Below, piece by piece: positions 5,280 to 37,288 of a stretch of 39,688 nt of DNA (positions are counted from its first letter, which is position 1; each line of letters begins with the position of its first letter). The translations under genes and the position numbers were made by a program. Source of the stretch: Candidatus Kapaibacterium sp. GTDB taxonomy: Bacteria > Bacteroidota > Ignavibacteria > Kapaibacteriales > Kapaibacteriaceae. The stretch spans positions 1-39,688 of the forward strand of contig VFFB01000010.1 in assembly GCA_018882585.1 (NCBI GenBank), given 5' to 3'. Under the pieces are notes generated by a model. That model saw only the letters and a list, made by a program, of their open reading frames with translations. It was not told the DNA's origin and made no database searches.

Positions 5280-8200
5280 ATGAAGGTTTTGAGACCCTTG
5301 GTGATGCTGTGCTTCTTTGCCGGAGTGCTGTCAACAGCACTTGCAGGCACTGGTACGCGTCGAGCTGCGCCACGTCCCGCACTGGAGGTGAACGTTGGTC
5401 AGGTGCGCACCGACAACGGACTGCCTGCCGACCATGTTCGAGCCTTCTCGCGGCAGGGAAACGTCACGTCATACCTTCATCCGACGGGAGCGCATCTGGT
5501 GACACGCACGTTCGACTTCGAGCGTCGCGAAGAGCCAACGGCGCCGTATACCGAGACGGCGTACCGTTGCGATATGAGGTTTCTGGGCGGTAACCCCATG
5601 GCCCGAACCATACACGGCGCAACGGCCGGAGGCCCAAGTCGATACTACCTGCCCGGCCTGAACGGCGTTGCGGCCGAGCAGCTTACATCCATGACCTTTG
5701 TTGACGTTTGGGATGGCATCGACGTCCGATGGACGTCAGGCATGCAAGGACTGAAGTACGAGTTTGTCGTCCGCCCTGGTGCCGATCCCTCGGCCATCGC
5801 CATTGCCTTCGACGGCGCTTCGTCCACGCGCACTACGGCCGACGGTGGCTTCGAGCTGGCCACGCCAATGGGCGTGATGAACGAGGCAGCCCCGGTAAGC
5901 TGGCGCAGTGCCGACCATGATGGGCGCAGCAACATTGGTCCGGCCGACGTCCGGTTTATGCTCAGCGGCAACGTACTTCGCTTTGACGTTCGCTCGCATG
6001 ACCCCTCGAAAACGCTCGTGATCGACCCTGCACAGATCTGGACGACCTACTACAGTGGCAATGCCGACATTGCCGAGGAGGTCCGCCTGGCAAAAGACAA
6101 GTTCATGAATGTCATCATTACCGGTGCTTCGCCTGCTACGAATCTCCCGACGACCGTTGGAGTCATCCAGCGCAACAAGAAAAACGGCAATGGCAACTGG
6201 GATGGATTCATTGCGAAATTCGACATCGATGGAAAGCACCTGTGGAGCACCTACTACGGCTCGAGCAAGCAGGACGCCTTCCGAGATGTCGCCTGCGACT
6301 CGTTGGGCAATGTATGGGCCGTTGGCTTCGTGGGCGATGTGGATGCTCCGAACCTCATCGTCGATGGCAAGGATGCCACCGGGAAAGACACGGTTAAGAA
6401 GTTCGACATCCTTGTTGTCAAGCTGAATCCCAAGGGGGCTTGGATCGACGCATTCACGATGTCCGGCCGCGAGAACGACATCGCCAATGCCATTGACATC
6501 ACCGGTTCGAACGTCACGATCGTTGGCGTGACGCGAAGCCCCGAGATCTACGGTCTGCGTGGGACACCATATGCCAAGGCCTCGGCTGGCACGCCTCCGT
6601 TGCCCGACAACAATGACGATGCCTTCATTGCGCGATTCATTCCCGTCCCGAACAACCCTGATCGGTCAAAGCTGTCGTGGCTCACGTTCTTTGGTGGTAC
6701 TGCCTACGACGATGCCTTGGCAGTACGCTGCAATTCGGCGGGCGACATCTTTGTATGTGGCAAGACCGTTTCGACAAACATTCCCTCAACGCTGGGTACG
6801 TTTGGCGGAGGCTCCTTCTTTGACGGCTGGATCGCCCGCTTCCCGTCGGCCGGCGGTGCCCGCACATGGTGTACGTACCTTGGTGGATCGCTTGATGATC
6901 AGGCCCTTGACATTGCCGTAGATAATCAAGGAACGCCTACCGTCGTAGGAACGACAATCAGCACGAACTTCCCAGTAACGCCAGGTCTCGACGGCTTCAT
7001 CGCCGGCCGAGCAGGCTTCATTGCCCAGCTCAATGCCGGTACCGGTGCCCGCACATGGTCGACGCTCGTGGCCGCCAACGGCGTCATTGGCTCGATGCAA
7101 CTGAAGGGCGTGGCTATCGACCAGTCCCGGCGGATCTGGGTAACGGGGTTCCGTGAACTCGTAACAGGGTGGACAACAACAACGGACGCATTCCAGAAGA
7201 CCGTCACCGATGAGACGCGGACATATGACGGTATCATGGCGCGCTACTCGCCCACCGGACAGCGCCAATATGCGTCGTATCTGAGCGCGCCGTCCGACCC
7301 CGGCATTCCCGCGGGTCTTCCGCCTGCCGGCAGTGACCTTGGTCGCGACGAGTGTTTTGACGTGATGTGCGAGGGAGATGCCTACATGATCTTCGCCAAC
7401 ATCACCACCAGCAACAACTTCCCCACGAAGAACGCATATCAGGATTCGACCAACTTGCTGTCGACCGGCCTTGCCCGCAATGCCGTCATCGCCTTCTTCA
7501 GTGATTGCCCGGATTCGACGATCTCGATCACCGGACCCTCGAACATTTGCAACGGCCAGCCCATCCAGCTTGCCGCTCCCATCGGATTCGCCAAGTATCA
7601 ATGGAGCACCGGCGAGACCACGCGTACGATCACCGTGGCCGACTCGGGGTCGTACATTCTGACGGCCATCACCGACAAGGGCTGCCGCTATCGCGACACG
7701 CTCAAGGTGCAGTACTTCGTGTCTGCCTCCATCTCGGCCGGCAAGGACATCACCATCTGTAAGGACACACTTACCGAACTCAGCGTGACCATCACGGGCG
7801 GCACACCGCCGTTCAAGTACAAGTGGAACCGCATCGAGTCCGGCCAGGAGTACATCCAAGGCGATACGACGGCAACGCCAAAGGTATTCCCGGCAACGAC
7901 ATCGAACTACGAGATCGCTACGACCGATGCAAACGGTTGTATCTCACGGGATACGATCCTTGTTGCCGTGCTCGATCCAAAGCCGACCTTCGGTTCGGGC
8001 AACGTCGAGTTCGGTCTGATCGATGCCTGCTCGTCCTTCGGCGAAGCGGGATTCATCCTGCGCAATCCGATGCCCTACCCTATTACGGTAACGACCATCA
8101 CGTCGGCAACGGGTACGATCAGCGATGCTACACCCCTTGGCGCCGGAGGCCTGACGATTCCGGCCAACGGATCTGCCGACCTGATGGCACGCTACACACC

Positions 8201-10205
8201 AACGGCACCGGGCGTGGTAACTGGCACGATCATCCTACGGGGTATGCCTTGCGGGTGGACGGCAACGATCCCGTTCCGGGCCGACAAGGCGCGGCTTGGA
8301 GCCTCGGTTGCACCCGGCACCGTGTCGTTCGGTGTTGCCAGCGCATGCGAGACCATCGACGTGATCGACACGGTCGAGATTCGCAATGGCGGTACGGATC
8401 CGCTGGTCGTCCAGCCGGGTATTGTTGGCGCGCCCTACAGTGTGGTTGCCCCGACGGCCGAGACGACCGTCGACCCCGGGAAGACCCTTGACGTCATCAT
8501 CCGCTACGCACCCTCGGCTGCCGGAACGTACAACGATCAGCTGAAGCTGCCGTACACGGCGGGACTCTGCGACGACACGTTGCGCGTCAACCTGTCGGGG
8601 GTCGCCTCGAAGACCGACGTACGGGCACTCTCGACGACGATCGCCATGCCAGACCTTTCAGGCTGCGAGACCGAGATGGACACAACGATCACGTTGACCA
8701 ATACCGGCGACGCACCGATCTCGCTCACGTGGACCGCTCCGGCGGACGCTGTCATCACGACCACGCAACCGCTGACTGTTGCGCCCGGCAAAGACGCCGT
8801 GATCCCCGTGACGATCCGGCCCTCGGCCATTGGACCTTACAGCGTGCCGGTCGAATTCACGGCCACGCCTTGTGAATTGAAGCTGACGGTTACCCTGACA
8901 GGCTCGAAACAAGGCGTTTCGTTTGACACACCGCCCACGATAGCACTCGGCGAGGTAAACAGCTGCGCACCGGGTGGCGCCTCGGCTTCCGGCAGCATCA
9001 CCTACAACGGCACATCCGGAACTGGCAGTGTTACCGACGTGGTCACAGGGCCAGGGATTACGACGACCCTTGCCAAGAATGCCACGCTTGCCGCAGGCAC
9101 CCCGCTGTCGTTCAATGTCACATGGACGCCCACGCAGGACGGCGCTCTGGTCGACAGTATCGTTGTCATCCTGCAGCCATGCGATACGCGACGCGTGATC
9201 CGCGTGACGGGCGTCCGCACCACGCCTGCCATTGCTCCGGCACAACCCGCGGTCGACCTTGGGACATTGCCCGTCGGTGGAACGACGGGTACGATCACGT
9301 TCCGCAACAGCGGGACGGACACACTCAGCGCCATTGTCGGTTCCGATACGCCCGGAATCATTGTCACAGGCACACGGCCGGCAGCTCTCACGTCAATCCT
9401 TCCGGGGACGACCATCGAGGTTGACTACCGTATCCCCTGCGACGCAGGCACGGGCATCTCCGGCACGATTGCTGCCGTGGCGAATCCTTGTGCGCTGACG
9501 GCCGCGACGACGATCACGGCCGTATGCTCCAAGCCGCCTGCCGTCGGAACGGCAATAGTGGCGCTCGACACGCAACGCGTCAGCGTCGGCGATCGCGTTA
9601 CGATGCCTATCCGAATCGTCGGATCGTCGAACCTCAACAGCAGTGATGCCCGCTCGTGGAGAGCTCTTGTCTCGTACGACCCCTACATTCTGGTAGCAAC
9701 GGGCTCGACCCGAGACTGCTACACCGAGGGGATGATGGGACGTTGCACCACGGAGGTAACGGGTGTTCGCGGAGCCGACACCGTGGGTACGGTCGGACAG
9801 CTGACATTCACGGCCGTGCTTGGCTACACGTCGTTCTCGGCGGTGCAGATCGAATCCTTCGACTGGACGTCACAAACGCCGGTCACCACAACCGTCCGCC
9901 ATGGCCGCGTAGAGATCGACAACATCTGCAACGATCGATACCTGGTGTACAAGCGTGGTACAACCGTCAACGTTCGACCGCAACCGGCCGATGATGTGGT
10001 CGAGATCTCCATGCAGACGTCGGCACCAACGTCAGATGTCGTGCTGTACGACCTGATCGGAAATGTGGTCGACCGCATGACCATTGCACTTGACCGTGAT
10101 GGCGCAGGCACGATCGACGTGCGGCATCTCGAAGCAGGCACCTATCTCCTCACGGCACGTGTCGGCGACATCGTGCGTTCCAACATGATTGTCATCGCCC
10201 GATAA
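5280..10205 (+). CDS. Large secreted multidomain protein with SBBP-type repeats, Cys-paired anchor domains and a T9SS sorting tail
   Basis: A 1641-residue protein with a signal peptide (MKVLRPLVMLCFFAGVLSTALA). Next comes an N-terminal domain typical of SBBP-repeat proteins (about residues 35-255, DUF7948-like), then a beta-propeller of repeats built around W-(S/T)-T-Y/F-x-G and A-x-D-x-x-G-N motifs (about 258-745), and Ig/PKD-like modules (about 750-895). Five tandem repeats of about 100 residues resembling choice-of-anchor D/Hydin-type domains follow, each with two cysteines (about 900-1420). Then come a cohesin-like domain (about 1422-1545) and a C-terminal sorting-domain-like tail with YDLIGNVVDR and LEAGTYLLTA. 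It is expected to cross the outer membrane by T9SS and act at the cell surface. An AAAGGA ribosome site precedes the ATG. A barrel-protein gene follows after 11 bases. The exact function is unknown; adhesion or surface-layer roles fit the architecture. Confidence 0.85.
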   Translation: MKVLRPLVMLCFFAGVLSTALAGTGTRRAAPRPALEVNVGQVRTDNGLPADHVRAFSRQGNVTSYLHPTGAHLVTRTFDFERREEPTAPYTETAYRCDMRFLGGNPMARTIHGATAGGPSRYYLPGLNGVAAEQLTSMTFVDVWDGIDVRWTSGMQGLKYEFVVRPGADPSAIAIAFDGASSTRTTADGGFELATPMGVMNEAAPVSWRSADHDGRSNIGPADVRFMLSGNVLRFDVRSHDPSKTLVIDPAQIWTTYYSGNADIAEEVRLAKDKFMNVIITGASPATNLPTTVGVIQRNKKNGNGNWDGFIAKFDIDGKHLWSTYYGSSKQDAFRDVACDSLGNVWAVGFVGDVDAPNLIVDGKDATGKDTVKKFDILVVKLNPKGAWIDAFTMSGRENDIANAIDITGSNVTIVGVTRSPEIYGLRGTPYAKASAGTPPLPDNNDDAFIARFIPVPNNPDRSKLSWLTFFGGTAYDDALAVRCNSAGDIFVCGKTVSTNIPSTLGTFGGGSFFDGWIARFPSAGGARTWCTYLGGSLDDQALDIAVDNQGTPTVVGTTISTNFPVTPGLDGFIAGRAGFIAQLNAGTGARTWSTLVAANGVIGSMQLKGVAIDQSRRIWVTGFRELVTGWTTTTDAFQKTVTDETRTYDGIMARYSPTGQRQYASYLSAPSDPGIPAGLPPAGSDLGRDECFDVMCEGDAYMIFANITTSNNFPTKNAYQDSTNLLSTGLARNAVIAFFSDCPDSTISITGPSNICNGQPIQLAAPIGFAKYQWSTGETTRTITVADSGSYILTAITDKGCRYRDTLKVQYFVSASISAGKDITICKDTLTELSVTITGGTPPFKYKWNRIESGQEYIQGDTTATPKVFPATTSNYEIATTDANGCISRDTILVAVLDPKPTFGSGNVEFGLIDACSSFGEAGFILRNPMPYPITVTTITSATGTISDATPLGAGGLTIPANGSADLMARYTPTAPGVVTGTIILRGMPCGWTATIPFRADKARLGASVAPGTVSFGVASACETIDVIDTVEIRNGGTDPLVVQPGIVGAPYSVVAPTAETTVDPGKTLDVIIRYAPSAAGTYNDQLKLPYTAGLCDDTLRVNLSGVASKTDVRALSTTIAMPDLSGCETEMDTTITLTNTGDAPISLTWTAPADAVITTTQPLTVAPGKDAVIPVTIRPSAIGPYSVPVEFTATPCELKLTVTLTGSKQGVSFDTPPTIALGEVNSCAPGGASASGSITYNGTSGTGSVTDVVTGPGITTTLAKNATLAAGTPLSFNVTWTPTQDGALVDSIVVILQPCDTRRVIRVTGVRTTPAIAPAQPAVDLGTLPVGGTTGTITFRNSGTDTLSAIVGSDTPGIIVTGTRPAALTSILPGTTIEVDYRIPCDAGTGISGTIAAVANPCALTAATTITAVCSKPPAVGTAIVALDTQRVSVGDRVTMPIRIVGSSNLNSSDARSWRALVSYDPYILVATGSTRDCYTEGMMGRCTTEVTGVRGADTVGTVGQLTFTAVLGYTSFSAVQIESFDWTSQTPVTTTVRHGRVEIDNICNDRYLVYKRGTTVNVRPQPADDVVEISMQTSAPTSDVVLYDLIGNVVDRMTIALDRDGAGTIDVRHLEAGTYLLTARVGDIVRSNMIVIAR

Positions 10206-10216
10206 GGAGTCCGACC

Positions 10217-11056
10217 ATGTCACCAATGAACCGACTGCTGATCTGCTTCTGTGCACTGTTGTGCGTAACGTCCGTGACTGCATTCGCTCAGGACGATGAG
10301 GAGACGTCGAAACTTCCCACGCGCAGGCAAGCCTACATCGACCCCGTCGTGTCGAACTCCGAGATCCTGAGCCTGGGACTGCACGGTGGCTTCGGCTCGA
10401 CAAGTCACTCCGGAGCCTTCAAAGGAGCGCCGAATGTCCTGTCATGCTGCCCCGAGTTCAGCTCGGGCAGCGGAAGCGGCATCGTGTTCGGCCTGGATGT
10501 CTCATTGCCCCTTACCGAGAAGCTGCGGTTCCTTGGTCGGATAAACCTGCAGGGCCTTGGAGGTGCGTTCGAGGCTTCCGAGTCGACGACGGTTCGCATC
10601 GGGAATCAGGCCGTCGAGACGTCCTTCCTTCATACGTTCGATGCGTCGCTCAGTATGATCGCCCTTGAGCCGGCCGTGGAGTACCGCCTAGGCGGTCTTG
10701 GAATCGTTGCAGGTCTTCGTGTGGGCATCCTGTCAGGAGGGACGTACAAGCAGGTCGACGAACTTTCGGACAAGAGTATCCCCTATACCTTCCCGAACGG
10801 CCAACAGGTGTTTCAGAATGCAACGGGTGATCTTACCGACCTGTCATCAATGCAGATCGGCGCTCTTGCCGGACTTCGCTACCATGTTGGGCTGAGCAAC
10901 AACCTGAGTGTCGTACCCGAGGTGATGTTTGCGCCAAACTTCACCGCGTTGAACGCGGATAGGGATTGGGGCGTTAGCTCACTGCGCTTCGGAGCTTCCG
11001 TTGTGCTCACCTTGTGGGGCAAGAACGTGATCGCTTCGCCCGTCATGCCGAAGTAA
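10217..11056 (+). CDS. Small outer-membrane beta-barrel protein with a Cys-Cys motif, partner of the upstream cargo gene
   Basis: A 279-residue protein with a signal peptide ending near residue 25 (VTAFAQ). The remainder alternates amphipathic strands and turns, as in PorT-like eight-stranded barrels, and ends in a strand (FGASVVLTLW) plus a short tail. A CCPEFSSGSGSG segment sits at residues 77-88. The same layout, including CCTEYTTSTGFG, recurs in the barrel domain of the OmpA-like protein at 33096-35234. An AGGAG site at 10205-10209 sits seven bases before the ATG at 10217 and supports that start over the ATG at 10226. The gene follows the large T9SS cargo gene by 11 bases, so the two are probably co-transcribed. 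This resembles the PorP/SprF arrangement, although I do not recognise PorP/SprF sequence features. The function is inferred. Confidence 0.72.
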   Translation: MSPMNRLLICFCALLCVTSVTAFAQDDEETSKLPTRRQAYIDPVVSNSEILSLGLHGGFGSTSHSGAFKGAPNVLSCCPEFSSGSGSGIVFGLDVSLPLTEKLRFLGRINLQGLGGAFEASESTTVRIGNQAVETSFLHTFDASLSMIALEPAVEYRLGGLGIVAGLRVGILSGGTYKQVDELSDKSIPYTFPNGQQVFQNATGDLTDLSSMQIGALAGLRYHVGLSNNLSVVPEVMFAPNFTALNADRDWGVSSLRFGASVVLTLWGKNVIASPVMPK

Positions 11057-23713: not shown

Positions 23714-25489
23714 ATGCGGACCGTCCTTTACGTCTTGGCAATGATGCTTGCACTGCAGGTAGCGCAGGCACAGAATGTCGACATCACTGTCGTTCACAAC
23801 GCACCCGACCCTGCGATCAGCGTCGTCGACGTGTACATCACCCAAGGTGGCATTACCAACAAGATCGAAGACCTTGCCTACCGGGCGGCCAGCAACGTTT
23901 CCAACGTGGTCACCCTGTTCGCCGATCTTGAAGTCACGATGCAATTCGCACCGGGGACGAGCACGGATGCCGGACAGGCACTGCTCACGGAGCGGTTCAC
24001 ACCGGTCGACGGCGAAGCCTATGTCATGACCGTCATCGGTCTTGCCGATCCGTCAAGCGGCTGGGTTGCCAATCCGTCCGGCGTTTCTACAGCCGCCGCC
24101 GTTCGCCGTTTCAAGGCTCTTTCCGAGACGTCCGACCCAACCAAGAGCGGCATCTATCTGGTGCATGCCTCCACGGATTTCGACGCATGCGACGTGTATA
24201 TCCGTGGCACTGCCAAGCCGCTTGCCACCAACTTCAAGTACGGCGACCAGATGACGACCATGGTCGAGGTTAGCCGCGATCGGGTGACCTTCGACCTGAC
24301 ACAGGTTGGACAAAAGACCAAGGTCCTGGCAAGCTTCTCGGCCGACCTAGGGGCACTCACCAACGTTTCGGTGTTCCAACTCTCCGGATTCAAGACGCCG
24401 GGCGACAACAAGGGTGGCACGGACACGCTTAGCATGATTGCCGTGATGGCCGACGGACAGGTTGCCCGCTTCCCGCTGCTGTCAGGTTCGCAAACAGCCC
24501 GCTTGCAGATCATTCACAATGCGGCAGCGCCGGCACTTGGCACGATCGACCTGTACTTGAACGGCGATCGCCGCGCAGACAACTTCTCGTTCCGCAAGGC
24601 CACGCCCTTTGCCGACGTGCCTGCCGGAACGCCGCTTGCGTTCGGTATCGCACCTCCAACAAGCAAGGATGCCAAAGAGATCACGGGCACGATCAATGTG
24701 CCTGCCCTTCGTCCCGGCCGCGCCTACACCATGATCGTGTCTGGCATCACCGACACGGCCGCCTTTGCAAAGAATCCCGACGGTCGCAACATCACACCTT
24801 CGATCACGGTGTTGGAAGGGGCATTGGAAGCCTCGGCTGTCGACGGTAAGACGTCGCTCCGTATCGCCCATGGTGCAACGGATGCCCCTTCGGTCATCGT
24901 CGAAACCGACGGCACGCCCATCGGAGGCACCCTGGGATATGGCGACGCCACAGCCGAGTATGCAGCCGTCGAGCCGGCCCAGGATACGCTCTGGGTGGCA
25001 GACCCTGTAACGAAGAAGCGCATCAAAGGCTACGTCGCCGATCTCCGTGGCAACAAGAAGGCCTTCATCGCCCTTGCCTCGGGCTTCATGGATCCGTCGA
25101 AGAATGCCAATGGTCCGGCCTTCCGCCTGGTCCTTGTCGATGCCTCCGGCACGGTCAACACGTCGATGCCGGAAGTCATGCCGGATACGACCGACCCAGG
25201 TGACACGACGTCAAGTGTCGACGAGCCGATGGTTCCGGCCTCTGCATGGTCGGTGGCTCCGAATCCCACCGACGATCGTCTGACCGTTGGCGTCGAAGCT
25301 CCGGTCGACCACGCCACGTTCGTCGTATTCGACGTCACCGGCACAGCACTGATGAGCATCAAGGCCGAAGGATCCGGTCGCCCCAGCGTCACGTTCCCTA
25401 CGCCGGAGCTTGCCCCCGGCACCTACGTCGTGCGTGGTCTGACGCCGGACGGACGCTTCCTGGGTTCTACCCGCTTTGTGAAGCGGTAA
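23714..25489 (+). CDS. Secreted DUF4397 repeat protein with a T9SS sorting tail
   Basis: A 591-residue protein with a signal peptide (MRTVLYVLAMMLALQVAQAQ). It carries at least three DUF4397-type beta domains, opening at VDITVVHNAPDPAISVVDVY (residue 22), ARLQIIHNAAAPALGTIDLY (about 262) and SLRIAHGATDAPSVIV (about 384), with a related segment near 150 (IYLVHASTDFDACDVYI). A Thr/Asp/Pro-rich linker follows. The C-terminal sorting tail is WSVAPNPTDDRLTV...VFDVTGTAL...LAPGTYVVRG, with the classic APNP start. It is expected to be exported by T9SS and attached to or released from the surface. A GGAG site precedes the ATG. Its ligand is unknown. It has no barrel-gene neighbour, unlike the cargo genes at 5280 and 35231. 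Confidence 0.88.
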   Translation: MRTVLYVLAMMLALQVAQAQNVDITVVHNAPDPAISVVDVYITQGGITNKIEDLAYRAASNVSNVVTLFADLEVTMQFAPGTSTDAGQALLTERFTPVDGEAYVMTVIGLADPSSGWVANPSGVSTAAAVRRFKALSETSDPTKSGIYLVHASTDFDACDVYIRGTAKPLATNFKYGDQMTTMVEVSRDRVTFDLTQVGQKTKVLASFSADLGALTNVSVFQLSGFKTPGDNKGGTDTLSMIAVMADGQVARFPLLSGSQTARLQIIHNAAAPALGTIDLYLNGDRRADNFSFRKATPFADVPAGTPLAFGIAPPTSKDAKEITGTINVPALRPGRAYTMIVSGITDTAAFAKNPDGRNITPSITVLEGALEASAVDGKTSLRIAHGATDAPSVIVETDGTPIGGTLGYGDATAEYAAVEPAQDTLWVADPVTKKRIKGYVADLRGNKKAFIALASGFMDPSKNANGPAFRLVLVDASGTVNTSMPEVMPDTTDPGDTTSSVDEPMVPASAWSVAPNPTDDRLTVGVEAPVDHATFVVFDVTGTALMSIKAEGSGRPSVTFPTPELAPGTYVVRGLTPDGRFLGSTRFVKR

Positions 25490-28026: not shown

Positions 28027-31000
28027 ATGCGTCTAGTTCTCTGCCTTGCCATTCTGGCCATTGCCACAGGCACAACGGTTGCGTCGGTCGACACGCTGCG
28101 CTACGACGACGGAACGTATACCAGCATCAACACGGCTCGCGAAAACTGGGAAGAGTCGGTCATCATCGCAGCCGACGGACCCTGTAGAGTGGAACGCATC
28201 CTGGTTTACTATGCAGGCGGTACCGGCAATGATGTTGTGCGGCTGACGGGTGACGCCGCCGAAGGGGCAATTCCGCCCACACAGTACTGCTTTGACTATA
28301 ACACACTGGCCATGGCCAACGTCAGCGTCACAGCTCCCGGCTGGATGAGCATCGACGTGTCGTCGCAGAACGTTATCATTGGCGGCTACGAGCGCATCGT
28401 CGTACAGCATCTAGTCCGCCCGGGCGGCCCACAGTTCGGCCAGGACGCAGGCCAATCCGCCGTCAGGTCGTTTTTCTACGACCCTGTAACACCCAATCCG
28501 AACTTTTATCAGATCCCCGGCATCTATTATCGCGCCAGCGGCGACTACATGGTGCGTCTGGTGGTGACGCGACTTGCAACCGAGCAGCCCGTACCGACCA
28601 TGGTGGACGTCACCCGGACCGCCGGCCTTGTTGATGCAGCAGGCACTGCGATCAAGGCCGATATCAGCTCCGTTGCCGATATCGACAACGATGGATGGGA
28701 CGATATCGTTGTTGGAGCCGGCATGGCCTTCGCCAACAACGCCAATGGAACATTCACACGTAAGACGCTGCCCTTCAGCGGCGGAGCCACGGTATGGGCA
28801 GACGTCGACAATGACGGACGTGTTGATGCCTTCGTCGCCGCCGGTTTTGGCAATGATATACTTTGGCATAATGATGGCAACTGGACCTTCACAGACATCA
28901 CGAAGGCCTCGGGCATCGTAAATGACGCTCCCACCGTCACGCCGCTGTTTGCCGACTATGACGGCGACGGCGACCTTGACCTGTTCATTGCCAACGGTCG
29001 TACGGAGCAGAACGGCCAGGAGGTCTACTTCCAGGACAAGCTCTGGCGCAACGACAACGGCACGTTCGTCGACGTGACGACTGCCTCCGGTATCGCCTTG
29101 GGAGAACGTAGCCCCTTTTATGATACGTGGGGCGCAAGTGTTGCCGATGCCAACAATGATGGGCGCCCTGATTTCTTTGTTGCCACGTACCGACTTGCTC
29201 CGGACAGGCTGTACCTGAACAAGGGTGACGGAACCTTCCGCGAGATATCTGCAGCCTCGGGTGTGCAAGGCAATACCACAACAGAGCCCGGATACTTTGG
29301 TCATGGCATGGGTAGCGATTGGGCCGACATCGACAACGACGGCGATCAGGATCTTGCCGTGGGCAACCTTGGACATCCCGATTCGCGCGCGCGATACTCC
29401 AACCCGTCGCTGATCTGGATCAACGATGGCAAGAGCGATCCTTCGTTCACGTCGCGTGTTGCCGGCAACGGTGGCGTAAAATTCTACGAGATGAATGCCG
29501 GCATGTGTTTCATGGATCTTGACCATGACGGCTACCAGGACCTGTGGCATGGGCAGATCTCGTACGAGCAGTTCGGTGCCGGCGCTACCCGTCGGTCGCG
29601 ACTCTACCTGAATGAAGGCGGCAAACGATTCAATGACATCACCTGGGACGCCGGCATGTCGCATCACGGTCCGTGGACGGGTGTTCGGATCGACTACGAT
29701 CGCGACGGAGACCTTGATCTGCTTGCATCTTCGGGTACAGAATCCGTGAAGCTCTATCGCAACGACGTCGAGAAGAAAGGGGCATCGGTCACGCTGTTGC
29801 TTCGCAACACGAAAGACAATGCCATGCCTCGCGACGGTTCGGGCGCCTACGTCACCGTCGTTGCCGGCGGGACACGATTCCACCGCTGGACGGTAGCAAC
29901 CCCCATCGGCGGCCGCGCAGCGCAGATGAGCACTGATCTGCATGTTGGAGTAGGCGAAGCAAAGGTCATCGACAGCGTGATCATCCGCTGGCCGAATGGT
30001 GAACGCCAGGTTGTTACGGCGCTCAGCGCAGGCGGCACATACGTCATCGACAGAGCAGGCAGCACCAAGCGTCTTGCCTCGGTGCCCAACCTGCGGGCCC
30101 CCATGAACGGAGCGACCGGACTTTCCGACAATGTCACGCTGCAGTGGGACGCGCCGTTCGGTGATACGGTCAGGGTCATCGTCGCCACCGATGCAGCGCT
30201 GACCAACCTTATCAAGAATGTAACGAGCACTGCGTCGACCCTTCCGCTCAGCACCGTCGAGCAGGGATCAACGTATTTCTGGCAGGTCGTGCGCACGATC
30301 GGCGACAAAACCTACAGCACGCCCACATGGTCGTTCAGCGTCGGCCTGCCGAAACCGGATACCGTCATGGCGCTGTATCCATTTCCGGGAAGCCCCGGTG
30401 TTTCGACTGCTCCGGTGATGACGTGGCACAGGGCCACGTACAGCTCGCTGAGATCATTTCCGACGACGTACGACGCACAGATATCCCGTGACAGTACGTT
30501 TGCCACAGTGGATAGATCTGCGAGCGGCATCAGCGACACCTTGCACGCATTCGATTCGCTCGTGGGCGAGACGCGGTACTTCTGGCGAGTTCGCGGCGTC
30601 AATGGCACGCAGCCGGGCCCGTGGACGCAAGCTCGTGGATTTACCACGTACGGTCTGCCGCCGGCCATCGCCTTGGATCTGCCCTCCGACGGAGCCACAG
30701 GTGTCTCGCAACGTCCAAAACTGCAATGGCGCCGCCACCCCTGGGCGGAGCGCTACACGGTCGAACTTGATACGACGCCATCGTTCGACGCACCGCTCAC
30801 GCGCGAGCGCCCCGACACAGCATTCTCGGTCACGTCGCTGCGCAAGCCGCAGACGACGTACTACTGGCGTGTTATCGGCATCAACGCGCTGGGCAATGGC
30901 ACGCCGTCGCCAACATGGTCGTTCAAGACCGGTGGTACGGTTAGCGTTCCACTCGACGAGATCCCTGTATCCGCCTTTGACACGTGGAAGGCATACGACG

Positions 31001-31134
31001 TACTTGGACGCACCATCGCCGAGGGCAGTCCTGTTGTTGTCAAGCAGCGCATCGAGTCTCACCGCGGCATCATCATCATCGAACAAATCGACGAACGTGG
31101 CAATCGTGCCAATGTGTATGCCGTGATGCGGTAA
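28027..31134 (+). CDS. Secreted FG-GAP/VCBS propeller protein with ASPIC/UnbV and Fn3-like domains
   Basis: A 1035-residue protein with a signal peptide (MRLVLCLAILAIATGTTVAS). A propeller region (about residues 195-590) carries at least seven calcium-binding DxDxDG-type loops, for example DIDNDGWDD, DVDNDGRVD, DYDGDGDLD, DANNDGRPD, DIDNDGDQD, DLDHDGYQD and DYDRDGDLD, each in an FG-GAP/VCBS blade. An ASPIC/UnbV domain follows (about 605-680, IIRWPNGERQVV). Three Fn3-like repeats (about 690-970) contain YFWQV, YFWRV and YYWRV. The last 60 residues contain YDVLGRTIAEG, which resembles the middle of a T9SS sorting tail but lacks the usual xPNP opening. A GGAG site precedes the ATG. Probably surface-exposed; ligand unknown. 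Confidence 0.87.
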   Translation: MRLVLCLAILAIATGTTVASVDTLRYDDGTYTSINTARENWEESVIIAADGPCRVERILVYYAGGTGNDVVRLTGDAAEGAIPPTQYCFDYNTLAMANVSVTAPGWMSIDVSSQNVIIGGYERIVVQHLVRPGGPQFGQDAGQSAVRSFFYDPVTPNPNFYQIPGIYYRASGDYMVRLVVTRLATEQPVPTMVDVTRTAGLVDAAGTAIKADISSVADIDNDGWDDIVVGAGMAFANNANGTFTRKTLPFSGGATVWADVDNDGRVDAFVAAGFGNDILWHNDGNWTFTDITKASGIVNDAPTVTPLFADYDGDGDLDLFIANGRTEQNGQEVYFQDKLWRNDNGTFVDVTTASGIALGERSPFYDTWGASVADANNDGRPDFFVATYRLAPDRLYLNKGDGTFREISAASGVQGNTTTEPGYFGHGMGSDWADIDNDGDQDLAVGNLGHPDSRARYSNPSLIWINDGKSDPSFTSRVAGNGGVKFYEMNAGMCFMDLDHDGYQDLWHGQISYEQFGAGATRRSRLYLNEGGKRFNDITWDAGMSHHGPWTGVRIDYDRDGDLDLLASSGTESVKLYRNDVEKKGASVTLLLRNTKDNAMPRDGSGAYVTVVAGGTRFHRWTVATPIGGRAAQMSTDLHVGVGEAKVIDSVIIRWPNGERQVVTALSAGGTYVIDRAGSTKRLASVPNLRAPMNGATGLSDNVTLQWDAPFGDTVRVIVATDAALTNLIKNVTSTASTLPLSTVEQGSTYFWQVVRTIGDKTYSTPTWSFSVGLPKPDTVMALYPFPGSPGVSTAPVMTWHRATYSSLRSFPTTYDAQISRDSTFATVDRSASGISDTLHAFDSLVGETRYFWRVRGVNGTQPGPWTQARGFTTYGLPPAIALDLPSDGATGVSQRPKLQWRRHPWAERYTVELDTTPSFDAPLTRERPDTAFSVTSLRKPQTTYYWRVIGINALGNGTPSPTWSFKTGGTVSVPLDEIPVSAFDTWKAYDVLGRTIAEGSPVVVKQRIESHRGIIIIEQIDERGNRANVYAVMR

Positions 31135-33095: not shown

Positions 33096-35234
33096 TCAGC
33101 GCGACCGCTTAACTTCGATCTGCACGGTACGGCTCAGGAATCGCTCTTCCGGCGTCGCGTACGACTCGATGCCCGGCGGAAAACGGTCCGTGCGAACCTC
33201 GTCGCAGTTCAACGTCACGCGCTTCTTCAGGTGCTTTTGGATGGCTTCGCACACGGCACTTGCGCGGCGTTGCGAAAGCTCGCGGTTGAATGCGGCATTG
33301 CCAAGCATGTCGGCAAATCCGCGCACGGTCACCGTTGATCCGGCAGGCACCACTTCGACGAATCGTTTGATCTGTTCTTCGGCGATCGGCGTCACCTTGT
33401 CGGAGGCGACGTCGAACAGCGTCAGCGTCAGACGCTCATATTCGTTCGAAGCCGTATCCCGCTTGATGGGAAGTGTGGCCGAGGCTGTTGCCGTCACACC
33501 GCGGATGCCAAGTATCGTCAGGTCTACGGCAACGGTCGATCCGTCCTTCATCTGATTTGCCTGGGCAAGGGTCAGCGGCTGCGTGATCGACGTCGGTACG
33601 CCCTGTCCCTCCTGCGCGAAGACCTCTTCGGCGCCGCTGCGAGCGACAAGCTTCCAGCCGGTGACGTATTGCGTCGACGATCCCGCGGGATCGAAGAGCA
33701 GACCTGGCGGATCGATGGCTCGAGCTTCGTTGAAACGACGACGTGCAACCGGTGCGAGCAAGGCAAGGTCGTCGCTCTCGATCTCGACGCGACGGTTCTC
33801 GGAGTAGCCGTCTTCGGACTGCTGACGCGTGAGTTTTTCCGGTGCGCACGATCCGTTTGCTGTCGCATTCACGATGCGGCCAGGATCGATGCCCCACACG
33901 GAGGTCAAATACTTCTTTACCGATTCGGCGCGGCCGCGGGCAAGTTCGCAGTTACCACCTTCGGTGGTGGGATCTGCATAGCCACGCAATCTGACGGACA
34001 TCGCGGCGTTGTCGCGAAGGCGTCTTCCGATCACGTTCATCACTTCGTGATGCACATCCGTCGTTCGAGGCCGAACCTTCATCTCGTCGTATTGCATCGG
34101 ATCGGTGACCTGCGTGTAGCGCGATGCAATGGCAGGCGACTGTGCATCAAAGAAGATCACCGGAAGCACCGGCAGTGCTTCGGTCACGAACTGCGTGGCA
34201 ACGTTGATGGTGAACGTTCCCTTGAGCGAACCATCGGCCTGTACGGCCTTCGTTGCAACCGCCGCCTTGATCTTGGGCAACGGCGGCGTGAACACCGTAT
34301 CGGTGCGGTAAGCACGCTCGGTGATCACCACCAGATCCTCGCTCACGGCAGTATCGGCTTCGACGCGCTCCAGGCCTTTTTCGCGACGATATGGCTTGTC
34401 GGGAGCGATGTCGACGATAAGCGAATCGACGAACGTGTCGCGACGTCGCTCGATCGGTATCGGCGGCGGTGGTGCGTTCAGGTTGAAGGCAAGCGACACG
34501 CCTGCACGGATTACCGAGGTCTTCCACGGCTGATCTTCGAGGTTGTCGCTCAGCGGAAGCGTATACAGTACTTCGGGCGTGACGACAACTGAATGATTGA
34601 TGGTCATGGGGATATCCATGCCAACACCAGCGACCAGCCCCATTGCGGAGCCGGCAAGGCCCTGCATGGGCTGGTTGGTCTGCACTCCGCGCTCGCGCCT
34701 GCCATTTTCGAAGGTGCCGACGGCAGGCTCCAGCAGGACCTCTTTCTGCGAATAGATCGACGACATGAACGATCCGAAGGACAAGCCTCCCAGAACGCGG
34801 ATACGACCGGGGAGTCGCGCATCAAGGAGTACCTCGCCCCCAATCATATCCATTGCGGTTTGAAGCTCGTGCTTCACCAGACCGTTGATCTGGCCGGAAA
34901 GAAGCAGACTCTCCGATGTTGTGAACAATCCCGAATACGGTAGATATGTTGCCCGCAGATTCAGGCGCAGATGTTTGGTGATCTCCTGCTTGAGAAACAA
35001 GCTTGCGGCTATGCCAAACCCCGTCGACGTGGTGTACTCCGTACAGCACGTTGGCGCACCGGGGAGCAGGAACGAGCCATCGTCCGACTGATAGCTGCCG
35101 TGGACAGCAACGCCAAGGCTTGTAAGCCAAACGTCTTCGGTGGAGAGTGTCGTTGGGATCTTGCTTGGTGCCTGCGCGAAGGATTGCATCGATGCAACGA
35201 GCGAGACAACGAGGAGTGTTCGGAGTGCCTTCAT
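33096..35234 (-). CDS. Outer-membrane barrel protein fused to two OmpA-type peptidoglycan-binding domains
   Basis: A 712-residue protein with a signal peptide (MKALRTLLVVSLVASMQSFAQA). A beta-barrel domain (about residues 35-252) contains the Cys-Cys motif at 63-64 (PTCCTEYTTSTGFG), matching the free barrel protein at 10217-11056. After a proline-rich linker and a beta-rich segment come two OmpA C-like domains: about 395-487 (RGYADPTTEGGNCELARGRAESV...NRRVEI) and about 600-708 (RGFADMLGNAAFNRELSQRRASAV...RTVQIEV). Both keep the Asp and Arg that bind diaminopimelate in OmpA homologues. It probably anchors an outer-membrane complex to peptidoglycan. Its ATG overlaps the stop of the beta-propeller T9SS cargo gene (ATGA), so the two are translationally coupled. 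Confidence 0.88.
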   Translation of the reverse strand: MKALRTLLVVSLVASMQSFAQAPSKIPTTLSTEDVWLTSLGVAVHGSYQSDDGSFLLPGAPTCCTEYTTSTGFGIAASLFLKQEITKHLRLNLRATYLPYSGLFTTSESLLLSGQINGLVKHELQTAMDMIGGEVLLDARLPGRIRVLGGLSFGSFMSSIYSQKEVLLEPAVGTFENGRRERGVQTNQPMQGLAGSAMGLVAGVGMDIPMTINHSVVVTPEVLYTLPLSDNLEDQPWKTSVIRAGVSLAFNLNAPPPPIPIERRRDTFVDSLIVDIAPDKPYRREKGLERVEADTAVSEDLVVITERAYRTDTVFTPPLPKIKAAVATKAVQADGSLKGTFTINVATQFVTEALPVLPVIFFDAQSPAIASRYTQVTDPMQYDEMKVRPRTTDVHHEVMNVIGRRLRDNAAMSVRLRGYADPTTEGGNCELARGRAESVKKYLTSVWGIDPGRIVNATANGSCAPEKLTRQQSEDGYSENRRVEIESDDLALLAPVARRRFNEARAIDPPGLLFDPAGSSTQYVTGWKLVARSGAEEVFAQEGQGVPTSITQPLTLAQANQMKDGSTVAVDLTILGIRGVTATASATLPIKRDTASNEYERLTLTLFDVASDKVTPIAEEQIKRFVEVVPAGSTVTVRGFADMLGNAAFNRELSQRRASAVCEAIQKHLKKRVTLNCDEVRTDRFPPGIESYATPEERFLSRTVQIEVKRSR

Positions 35235-37288
35235 TGCTTGCTCACCAGGATCGTTGCACGTTCCGTGGCCGAGGTCACGGAGATGATATACGGGCCGCTT
35301 GCAAGCGCCGACGCATCGATACTTCGGGTCATCGACTTCCGTTGCTGCTCGTCAGCCGTGGCCTGATCGGCAAACACCACACGTCCGAGCATGTCAACGA
35401 CGGTCAGCGTTGCAGGCATGGCCTCGGCCAGGGCCACATCAAGATCGATCATGGATCCCCTTCTGGCCACGGCGATCGACAGCTGCTGACCATTGGGATT
35501 GAACAGACGCGGTGTTCCGCCTTCGCGACAGATGCCACGAACGAGGATGTCGGCCGATGCCGTGTCGAACGTCACGCCCGGACCAGAACCGATCTGCCGT
35601 ACACCCCGGACGCGGACGCGGGTTAGGGAATCCGTGCCCAGCGTGGCGCGGAACGTCAGGACGTCAATGATGGCTTCGGTAAGGGGCAGCGGGACGGCCT
35701 TGAGCGTTACCGTGCGCATGTCGGCCGAATCGACCTCGCCTGCGACAAGATCGCGCGTCTCCAGGTCGATCATCGTGTAGTTGTAGCGAAGGCTTACGGC
35801 GATGGAATCGATGTCGGCCAGCGCAAGGAAGGACGTTGCTTCGAGCCGCAATTCACTTTGCAGTCGATCGCCGATCATCACGGTGTCGCCCGTGGTACGC
35901 AGCCGGGCAAAGGCTGGCGGCGGCGGCGAGATCGAGAATACATTGTCGGAGGTGTCGGCCTGCAGCACGATGGACTTGATTCTCCATATCCGAGCCGCAT
36001 CTACGGCCGTCGTCATGATGCGCGTATCGTCCGGACTCCATGCAATGGTGTTGAGCGGGCCCGGATGCGGCAGCCTGCGGAATTGGCGCAATGCCACCAT
36101 GTCGAAGATCTGTACCGAGGCATCGTTGCTTGCCGTGGCCAGCATGGTGCCATCGCTGTTCCACTCCACGTCGACCAGGTACGAGGTATGTCCGCCGAAT
36201 CGCACGATGAGTTTTGCGGTGTCCGGCGCCGTGATGTCCCAGACGGTCACGGTCGAGTCGCTCATGCCAACGGCAAGACGTGTTCCGTCCGGCGAAAAAT
36301 CCAGACAGCGAACACCTTCGTCGACAACGCTCAGCGAATCTCGCTGTCGGCCATTCGTCGAGTTGAACAGCCGCACCGTAGCGTCACCACCAACCGTTGC
36401 CACAAGGGCGCCATCGGGCGAGAACTCGGCCTGCAGCACCCCTGCCTGCACGTGGCCACGCAGCTTCAGGCCAAGGCCTCCGGTGCGGTTATAGATGGTG
36501 GCAAGATTATCGTCAGAACCGGTCACGATGCGATCGCCGGAAGCCGACCAGGAAATGTCGTTGACGGTTGCCGGATGACTGAACTGGGCCGATGCCACGC
36601 CGGACGCCGTAGGAAAGATCCTAGCCCTGTCGTCACGCGCATACGTGGCGATGAACTTCGATGTCGCATCAAATCGTGCTTCGCGCACAACGTCGGGATG
36701 CGTGTACGTCCGAACAGCCTGATACGTCGTGGCATCCCACAGGCGGGCCGTGTTATCGTCGGACGCACTGATGATAAGCAGCGAGTCCTTGCTCCAGTCA
36801 ACGGTGTTGACGGCATCGTCGTGACCACTCAGCACGCTGAGCGTTGCGCCGGTCTCGGCATCCCACACATGTGGTTCGGCCCCGGCCGTCACGACGCGGG
36901 TTCCGTTCGGTGCCCACGATCCGTCAAGAACATTCGTGAAGTGCCTGGCATAGGTCACGTTGTCGGCCGGTGCGGGAGGCCGCACCTGCTGGATCAGTAC
37001 CCTGTAAGCGGATGCAACCGGAAACTTCGATGCATCCCACTGATAGGTCAGGCCGCGTGCACTGTCGGCGACAAGTGTCCACGATGTTCCGTCGTTGGGC
37101 GAAACGAAGATCTGCACGGCAAGCGTGTCATCAACGCCGGTCCACTCAATCGGGATGATGCGATCACGATTGATGTAAAAGATCTCGCCACCATTGGGCT
37201 TGACAATCGTGAGCTGAGCCGACAGGTCTGCGACGAATACGATGGCGGTGGCGGCAAGGACAAGCCAGCGTAATGGCATGTTCGACAT
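35231..37288 (-). CDS. Secreted WD40 beta-propeller protein with a cohesin-like domain and T9SS sorting tail
   Basis: A 685-residue protein with a signal peptide (PLRWLVLAATAIVFVADLSAQ). An Ig-like domain follows (about residues 26-105, LTIVKPNGGEIFYIN and VSPNDGTSWTLV). The WD40 propeller (about 115-440) has GHDDAVNTVDWSKDSLLIISASDDNTARLWD and several more blades. A cohesin-like domain (about 455-595, starting TGDTVMIGDRLQSEL) precedes an IC linker and a sorting-type tail with TVVDMLGRVV and LASGPYIISV. The cohesin-IC-tail module matches the end of the cargo protein at 5280-10205. I chose the ATG at 37288 (MSNMPLRW; an alternative is 37279) because the signal peptide starts there; the frame extends to 37486 within dnaB only. 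It overlaps the following barrel-OmpA gene by four bases. Confidence 0.87.
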   Translation of the reverse strand: MSNMPLRWLVLAATAIVFVADLSAQLTIVKPNGGEIFYINRDRIIPIEWTGVDDTLAVQIFVSPNDGTSWTLVADSARGLTYQWDASKFPVASAYRVLIQQVRPPAPADNVTYARHFTNVLDGSWAPNGTRVVTAGAEPHVWDAETGATLSVLSGHDDAVNTVDWSKDSLLIISASDDNTARLWDATTYQAVRTYTHPDVVREARFDATSKFIATYARDDRARIFPTASGVASAQFSHPATVNDISWSASGDRIVTGSDDNLATIYNRTGGLGLKLRGHVQAGVLQAEFSPDGALVATVGGDATVRLFNSTNGRQRDSLSVVDEGVRCLDFSPDGTRLAVGMSDSTVTVWDITAPDTAKLIVRFGGHTSYLVDVEWNSDGTMLATASNDASVQIFDMVALRQFRRLPHPGPLNTIAWSPDDTRIMTTAVDAARIWRIKSIVLQADTSDNVFSISPPPPAFARLRTTGDTVMIGDRLQSELRLEATSFLALADIDSIAVSLRYNYTMIDLETRDLVAGEVDSADMRTVTLKAVPLPLTEAIIDVLTFRATLGTDSLTRVRVRGVRQIGSGPGVTFDTASADILVRGICREGGTPRLFNPNGQQLSIAVARRGSMIDLDVALAEAMPATLTVVDMLGRVVFADQATADEQQRKSMTRSIDASALASGPYIISVTSATERATILVSKQ

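Follow-up and report, generated by a model that had tools for sequence, protein, structure and literature searches.

A family of putative outer-membrane barrels, distinct from PorP/SprF, often encoded directly downstream of T9SS cargo genes in Kapaibacteriales

Analysis of a Candidatus Kapaibacterium genome and its relatives suggested that each member of a family of outer-membrane barrels is the dedicated partner (carrier or anchor) of the T9SS cargo whose gene immediately precedes its own. A probability of about 0.7 was assigned to this reading, for which there are no binding data. In the two-class view of the T9SS, type A tails are served by PorV, a general shuttle, and each type B tail has a PorP/SprF barrel of its own. 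The barrel system is best read, by analogy, as a functional analogue of type B CTD, PorP/SprF and PorE that would have evolved separately from another barrel family. What was observed is that the genes are paired, with signals of coupled translation in the window, that pair subtypes have been inherited together, that the paired cargos have a tail subclass of their own, and that neither PorP/SprF nor type B tails occur in the order genomes searched, together with the predicted folds.

Cargo and barrel genes in the window

The window, meaning the whole 39.7 kb stretch of DNA analysed, is contig C166 of a 2.79 Mb draft genome and contained two cargo-barrel gene pairs. Gene calls throughout the analysis were taken from open frames.

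5280..10205, + strand: cargo 1, 1641 aa, with DUF7948, SBBP, choice-of-anchor-D/ASH repeats, cohesin-like module and sorting tail (sequence and domain scans)
9546..9917, + strand: cohesin-like beta-sandwich of cargo 1 (AlphaFold model; matches PDB cohesins)
9927..9929, + strand: linker Cys1550 of cargo 1, motif DNIC-NDRYL, between the cohesin-like module and the sorting domain (invariant column of alignment A4; adjoins the low-confidence linker in the model)
9969..10202, + strand: type-A-like sorting domain (Por_Secre_tail) of cargo 1 (PF18962 at 29.3 bits, cut-off 27; weak PDB gingipain/mirolase CTD matches)
10203..10209, + strand: TAAGGAG, in which the stop codon of cargo 1 runs into the Shine-Dalgarno-like sequence of barrel 1 (sequence)
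10217..11056, + strand: barrel 1, 279 aa, predicted 8-stranded outer-membrane barrel without OmpA domains (model, Foldseek)
10445..10450, + strand: Cys77-Cys78 of barrel 1 in predicted extracellular loop 1, its sole cysteines beyond the signal peptide (model, Cys count)
33096..35234, - strand: barrel 2, 712 aa, barrel fused to two OmpA domains (domain scans, alignment with barrel 1)
33111..33419, - strand: second OmpA domain of barrel 2, with Asp/Arg signature (domain scans, residue check)
33777..34049, - strand: first OmpA domain of barrel 2, with Asp/Arg peptidoglycan-binding signature (domain scans, residue check)
34431..35234, - strand: barrel domain of barrel 2 (27% identity to barrel 1, E=5e-17; barrel alignment A1)
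35043..35048, - strand: Cys63-Cys64 of barrel 2, aligned with Cys77-Cys78 of barrel 1 (alignment A1)
35231..37288, - strand: cargo 2, with WD40 propeller, cohesin-like module and sorting tail (domain scans, tail profiles)
35528..35530, - strand: linker Cys of cargo 2, RGICREGGTPRLF (alignment A4, Cys count)

An earlier note on this DNA had described a cargo gene followed after 11 bases by a barrel gene and a second such pair with a four-base overlap, and both pairs were found to be present, the overlap of the second being ATGA. The stop codon of cargo 1 lies inside the Shine-Dalgarno-like sequence of barrel 1, so that these two genes look translationally coupled. The domain scans and gene neighbours also bore out the statement that the two remaining secreted proteins of the window have neither the C-terminal module nor a barrel neighbour. 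The first of these (23714-25489) has DUF4397 and a weak tail and is followed by ffh, and the second (28027-31134, FG-GAP/UnbV) is followed by an epimerase gene. This second protein, of FG-GAP/UnbV-ASPIC type, has fn3-like domains and a signal peptide, and the tail profile scan recognised no T9SS tail in it.

Distribution and predicted structure of the barrel family

The identity between barrels 1 and 2 extends over 258 aa, and both carry the Cys-Cys, a GAFEASES/GLFTTSES strand and a VVPEV/VVTPEV strand, in agreement with the earlier view that they are of the same barrel type. The window genome contained 14 barrel copies by tblastn and 18 by profile. Between 9 and 28 copies per genome were found in all 25 genomes searched (the window genome and others of the same family and order). 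Outside the order, strong multiple matches were obtained in three more genomes of the class, and a few further genomes of the class and phylum gave only one or two weak matches each. The relatives matched in a scan of the genome collection with a closer subset of the diverse alignment A1 carried record titles that were mostly Candidatus Kapaibacterium, Ignavibacteria or similar. No description of the family was found in the open-access literature.

Most barrels continue into OmpA domains. PF00691 was matched in 6 of the 8 long barrels of the window genome that were scanned, barrel 2 included, and both domains of barrel 2 met the peptidoglycan-binding test (PF00691 plus Asp/Arg residues), while our own strict Asp/Arg pattern missed many others.

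The AlphaFold model of barrel 1, from a shallow alignment of 26 rows, had a mean pLDDT of 86 and eight strands (residues 49-68, 81-98, 103-128, 131-158, 161-183, 198-222 with a short gap inside, 230-241 and 251-267), and its best Foldseek matches were OmpX/Ail/OmpA/OmpT-type barrels. No sequence relatives of the barrel were found among solved structures, where the only matches were spurious ones to BCL6 and cyclooxygenase. Pfam/NCBIfam scans gave weak OMP_b-brl_2, Toluene_X and TDE1717 matches and nothing stronger, with no PorG model among them. Both termini were assumed to be periplasmic, as for small barrels generally, and this places Cys77-Cys78 in extracellular loop 1 (69-80) and the C-terminus, where OmpA follows, in the periplasm.

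Pairing of barrel and cargo genes

A gene with a T9SS tail was found directly upstream on the same strand in 92 of the 126 non-redundant barrels sampled, and the gaps in these sampled barrels were mostly below 60 bases or overlapping. Tails were detected with a local profile built from the window genome. The sample was biased to high-scoring copies, and a census of all copies was hence made in two genomes. Cargo stood directly upstream of 22 of the 37 census copies (12/18 in the window genome and 10/19 in the closed genome G005), against an expectation of about 1.5 (P about 1e-21). The expected rate of about 4% corresponds to 95 tails among 2400 genes, a number estimated from genome size. The proposed preference of barrel homologues for cargo neighbours is supported by both counts, which also rule out chance pairing in a single window. 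One match of the trained profile, in a GTPase-like protein upstream of a G005 barrel, was judged to be spurious and left out of the count.

About 40% of the census copies had no cargo upstream, and about a third of copies were orphan barrels, some of them with other neighbours that are conserved between genera. Orphan cargos with the full module and linker Cys and no barrel neighbour were found on contigs C36, C19 and C46 of the window genome. These may, by analogy, share orphan barrels in the way that a single shuttle serves three orphan type B cargos in F. johnsoniae (PMC12618676). The C36 cargo, with a CREGGPRLY module, is followed by an open frame of 846 residues that starts like a surface protein. 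A linker-Cys cargo occurs in two genera, at L212 on contig C46 and at L221 in G005 (SGCFIQGRLIKYFG and TGCSLQERALTFF, respectively), and 8-48 bases further on lies the gene of a protein of about 700 aa with the look of a TonB-dependent receptor (VVTGTRN...); these may be further pairs of cargo and barrel in which the barrel is of another kind.

In two genomes that were read, a further barrel type precedes a WD40 cargo, which results in the order barrel-cargo-barrel. A WD40 cargo of about 1440 aa between two barrel-OmpA genes was seen at L233/L234 (G005, G009) and on contigs C11 and C10 of the window genome, and paired coordinates suggest this order in about ten genomes.

Comparison with PorP/SprF

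SprA and PorV are present in the genome (the PorV family in three copies, all above the cut-off), and the T9SS core is therefore there. Other parts of the phylum Bacteroidota commonly have PorP/SprF. PF11751 had no match in the window genome or in the window barrels, and in 25 members of the order it had two matches only, both in proteins that look PorV/PorQ-like. No type B tail (TIGR04131) exceeded the cut-off in 25 order genomes, and hhalign of the barrel family against the PorP/SprF alignment gave probabilities of 20.7 and 33.8.

The new barrels meet the PorP/SprF criterion of a gene directly downstream of the cargo gene, and this identical gene order, together with the occurrence of OmpA fusions in true PorP/SprF, is what could be said for ordinary PorP/SprF identity. 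That identity was refuted at the sequence level by the lack of a PF11751 match in the window genome, the hhalign probabilities of 21-34% and the absence of type B tails from the order genomes searched, and the fold matches of OmpX/Ail/OmpA/OmpT type also stand against it, leaving it next to no credence. The suggestion in the earlier note of a parallel pairing system with a different barrel family is supported by the cargo-neighbour preference and the non-PorP/SprF profile, and the role in export or attachment remains an inference. Points absent from that note are the type-A-like (not type B) tail, the lack of true PorP/SprF in the order, and the linker Cys, which may be the partner of the Cys-Cys. 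In another Bacteroidota genome (G059), L228, L229 and L230 were found to be true PorP/SprF with TSP_3 repeats and a C-terminal OmpA, that is, shuttle and PorE-like anchor in one protein.

C-terminal module of the paired cargos

At the C-terminus of the paired cargos a cohesin fold is joined to a type-A-like sorting domain, which comes last, by a linker that carries a conserved Cys ([IV]CREGGxRL). The upstream cargos share this module and not their N-terminal domains, and WD40, SBBP and Ig-like cargos are alike in this respect. The C-termini of cargos 1 and 2 matched each other weakly in pairwise BLAST (E=0.039), and both matched the module profile, of which both are rows, nearly over its full length (E 2e-65 and 2e-60). 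That the two cargos end in the same cohesin-like/IC/tail module, as had been claimed, is thus clear from the profile and is supported by the fold of cargo 1.

The AlphaFold model of the cargo C-terminus (shallow alignment of 19 rows, mean pLDDT 87) showed a cohesin fold (17-140), a low-confidence linker from about Cys144, and a sorting domain (158-235) with a beta-sandwich-like strand pattern. The cohesin-fold test was met by the cargo 1 model, of which the best Foldseek matches were cohesins with TM (target) of about 0.6; Pfam Cohesin was matched by only 1 of 19 module members. With TIGR04183 (cut-off 23 bits), the tail of cargo 1 passed at 24.7 and that of cargo 2 fell just under at 21.6, and the latter passed PF18962 in a six-frame search. 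The type A test (PF18962/TIGR04183 plus an Ig-like CTD fold) was met, and the sorting domain, judged from profile matches and with only weak PDB CTD matches, appears to belong with the type A CTDs.

A Cys-x(2-7)-Arg-x-hydrophobic motif preceded the tail in 84 of 92 paired cargos versus 4 of 40 unpaired cargos of the window genome. Another module profile was trained only on the paired cargos of relatives, with the window genome held out, and was compared with a generic tail profile in leave-one-out form. In the window genome it scored more than 9 bits above the generic profile for 8 of the 10 paired cargos and for only one of the 40 unpaired, the orphan of contig C36. On these sequence criteria the paired cargos are a distinct tail subclass, and the extended module separates most paired from unpaired cargos.

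Barrel distances and cargo-tail distances were correlated over 92 pairs with r=0.78, versus a mean of 0.18 and a maximum of 0.39 in within-genome shuffles, which indicates that barrels and cargos stayed together as pairs. The same-genome subset (paralogues) of this mirror-tree test gave a weak result (r=0.38 vs 0.18, sd 0.065), and the tail without the linker gave none that was significant (r=0.08 vs 0.03).

Cysteines of barrel and cargo

In 111 of 126 barrels, the barrel domain has no cysteines past the signal peptide other than the Cys-Cys. Besides its linker Cys, cargo 2 has a single Cys, in its WD40 domain. A hand count of 102 pairs found both the linker Cys and the barrel Cys-Cys in 92, the cargo Cys alone in 0, the barrel Cys-Cys alone in 8 and neither in 2 (Fisher 0.009, without correction for common descent). 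The 92 include L214 and L246, in which the linker Cys is present though missed by the motif pattern. The eight barrel-only pairs (L021, L115, L116, L126, L127, L133, L149 and L240) form one orthologous group in which NPDPxRR replaces the cargo Cys motif and the barrels keep Cys-Cys. The two pairs with Cys-free cargo and Cys-free barrel (contig C58 of the window genome, and G005) also form one group. In the two-genome census, Cys-Cys was present in 18 of 24 cargo-adjacent versus 0 of 13 orphan barrels; orphan barrels with Cys-Cys do occur in other genomes.

In SprF and PorG, twin cysteines of the periplasmic tail bond with GldK, and donor-disulfide chemistry has been proposed (PMC12635249). The new barrels resemble them in that twin cysteines of an outer-membrane protein face a single conserved Cys of a partner, which in the cargo sits in an exposed linker, and resemble PorG in the eight predicted strands. 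Location and partner are different: SprF and PorG carry their cysteines on the periplasmic side, in the C-tail, and engage the track with them, and in the new barrels the Cys-Cys is placed outside the cell, in loop 1, with the exported cargo as its candidate partner. The PorG test of cysteines in a periplasmic C-tail was not met by barrel 1, of which the mature cysteines are only in loop 1.

Disulfide capture, in which the extracellular Cys-Cys would be a donor disulfide exchanging with the cargo linker Cys while the OmpA of the barrel is tied to peptidoglycan, in a separately evolved system, is a tentative and rather unlikely proposal, and the bond itself is inferred. The covariation of the cysteines was rejected as proof of it, only about two independent loss events being involved, and by its sequences the NPDPxRR group is a real counter-example. 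An even chance was given to the alternative that a vicinal structural disulfide stabilises loop 1 of the barrel and that the cargo Cys has another role, e.g. lipid, glycan or other-protein attachment. It accounts for the eight pairs with Cys-Cys and no linker Cys and for the linker Cys of several unpaired cargos, but not so readily for a linker Cys present in 92 of 102 pairs and never beside a Cys-free barrel, for the loss of the cargo Cys in the only group with Cys-free barrels, or for the census difference between cargo-adjacent and orphan barrels.

Discussion

Under the dedicated-partner reading, the cargo would be exported via the SprA translocon using its type-A-like sorting domain, and the cognate 8-stranded barrel would recognise the module (cohesin fold, Cys linker and sorting domain) and hold the cargo at the cell surface. 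The complex would, for most copies, be tied to peptidoglycan through the periplasmic OmpA domains of the barrel. Export route, binding, surface retention and the peptidoglycan link are all inferred. Extraction of the cargo from the translocon by the barrel is likewise an inference, and whether the barrel replaces PorV stays open. The orphan barrels (about 40% of the census) and the module-bearing cargos without a barrel (C36, C19 and C46) count against the reading, as do the weak same-genome result and the non-significant tail-only result of the mirror-tree test.

With PorV present and the tails type-A-like, export by PorV could take place with the barrel acting only afterwards. In that account PorV collects the tails and the barrel holds the cargo at the surface after export without being a shuttle, which as regards anchoring is a sub-case of the dedicated-partner explanation. 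It was held to be a serious possibility, short of an even chance: the three PorV copies above the cut-off, SprA, the match of the tails to type A CTDs and a barrel much smaller than the PorV/FadL type are all in its favour, but the extended tails of the paired cargos form a subclass of their own, and in the known cases of one barrel gene paired with one cargo gene the barrel is a shuttle (PMC12618676). Adjacency by itself shows co-regulation, and barrel and cargo might merely be co-expressed for one surface process such as adhesion without binding each other, as the orphans on both sides would allow. This was considered improbable, given that the upstream genes share a C-terminal module and not N-terminal domains and that the pair subtypes co-vary.

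The precedent for cognate cargo-barrel pairs is type B CTD cargo with PorP/SprF, as in SprB-SprF and PG1035-PorP (PMC12618676, PMC9143113). The dedicated-partner system resembles it in the barrel gene directly 3' of the cargo gene, the many cognate pairs per genome, the orphans on both sides and the presumed surface anchoring. It differs in that the barrels are of an unrelated family with 8 predicted strands, that their Cys pair lies in an extracellular loop and not in a periplasmic tail, and that the cargos have a cohesin fold and Cys linker before a type-A-like sorting domain. As with PorE, the OmpA-like partner of PorP, and with the PorP_SprF-TSP_3-OmpA fusions, peptidoglycan-binding OmpA is attached to the barrel of the cargo; unlike these, the new barrel is fused to one or two OmpA domains without TSP_3 repeats. 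The OmpA fusion in true PorP/SprF and in the new barrels is a convergent detail. The sorting domain is of the PF18962/TIGR04183 family, as in type A CTDs served by PorV, and unlike that one general shuttle there is one new barrel per cargo. The 8-stranded fold is shared with the small barrels OmpX/Ail/OmpA, which differ in lacking the T9SS gene context and, beyond the weak matches listed above, any sequence relation in the Pfam/NCBIfam scans.

In the best reading, a Bacteroidota order without type B tails and PorP/SprF has expanded a one-barrel-per-cargo system in which type-A-like tails go with a barrel of an unrelated family. About a hundred natural pairs, with more to be had by search, are available for complex prediction and specificity mapping, and with them disulfide capture on the surface of bacteria can be tested directly. 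If the reading is true, dedicated carriers arose at least twice, the division into A and B tails fails to predict the anchoring mode, and a short recognisable module directs cargos to dedicated barrels.
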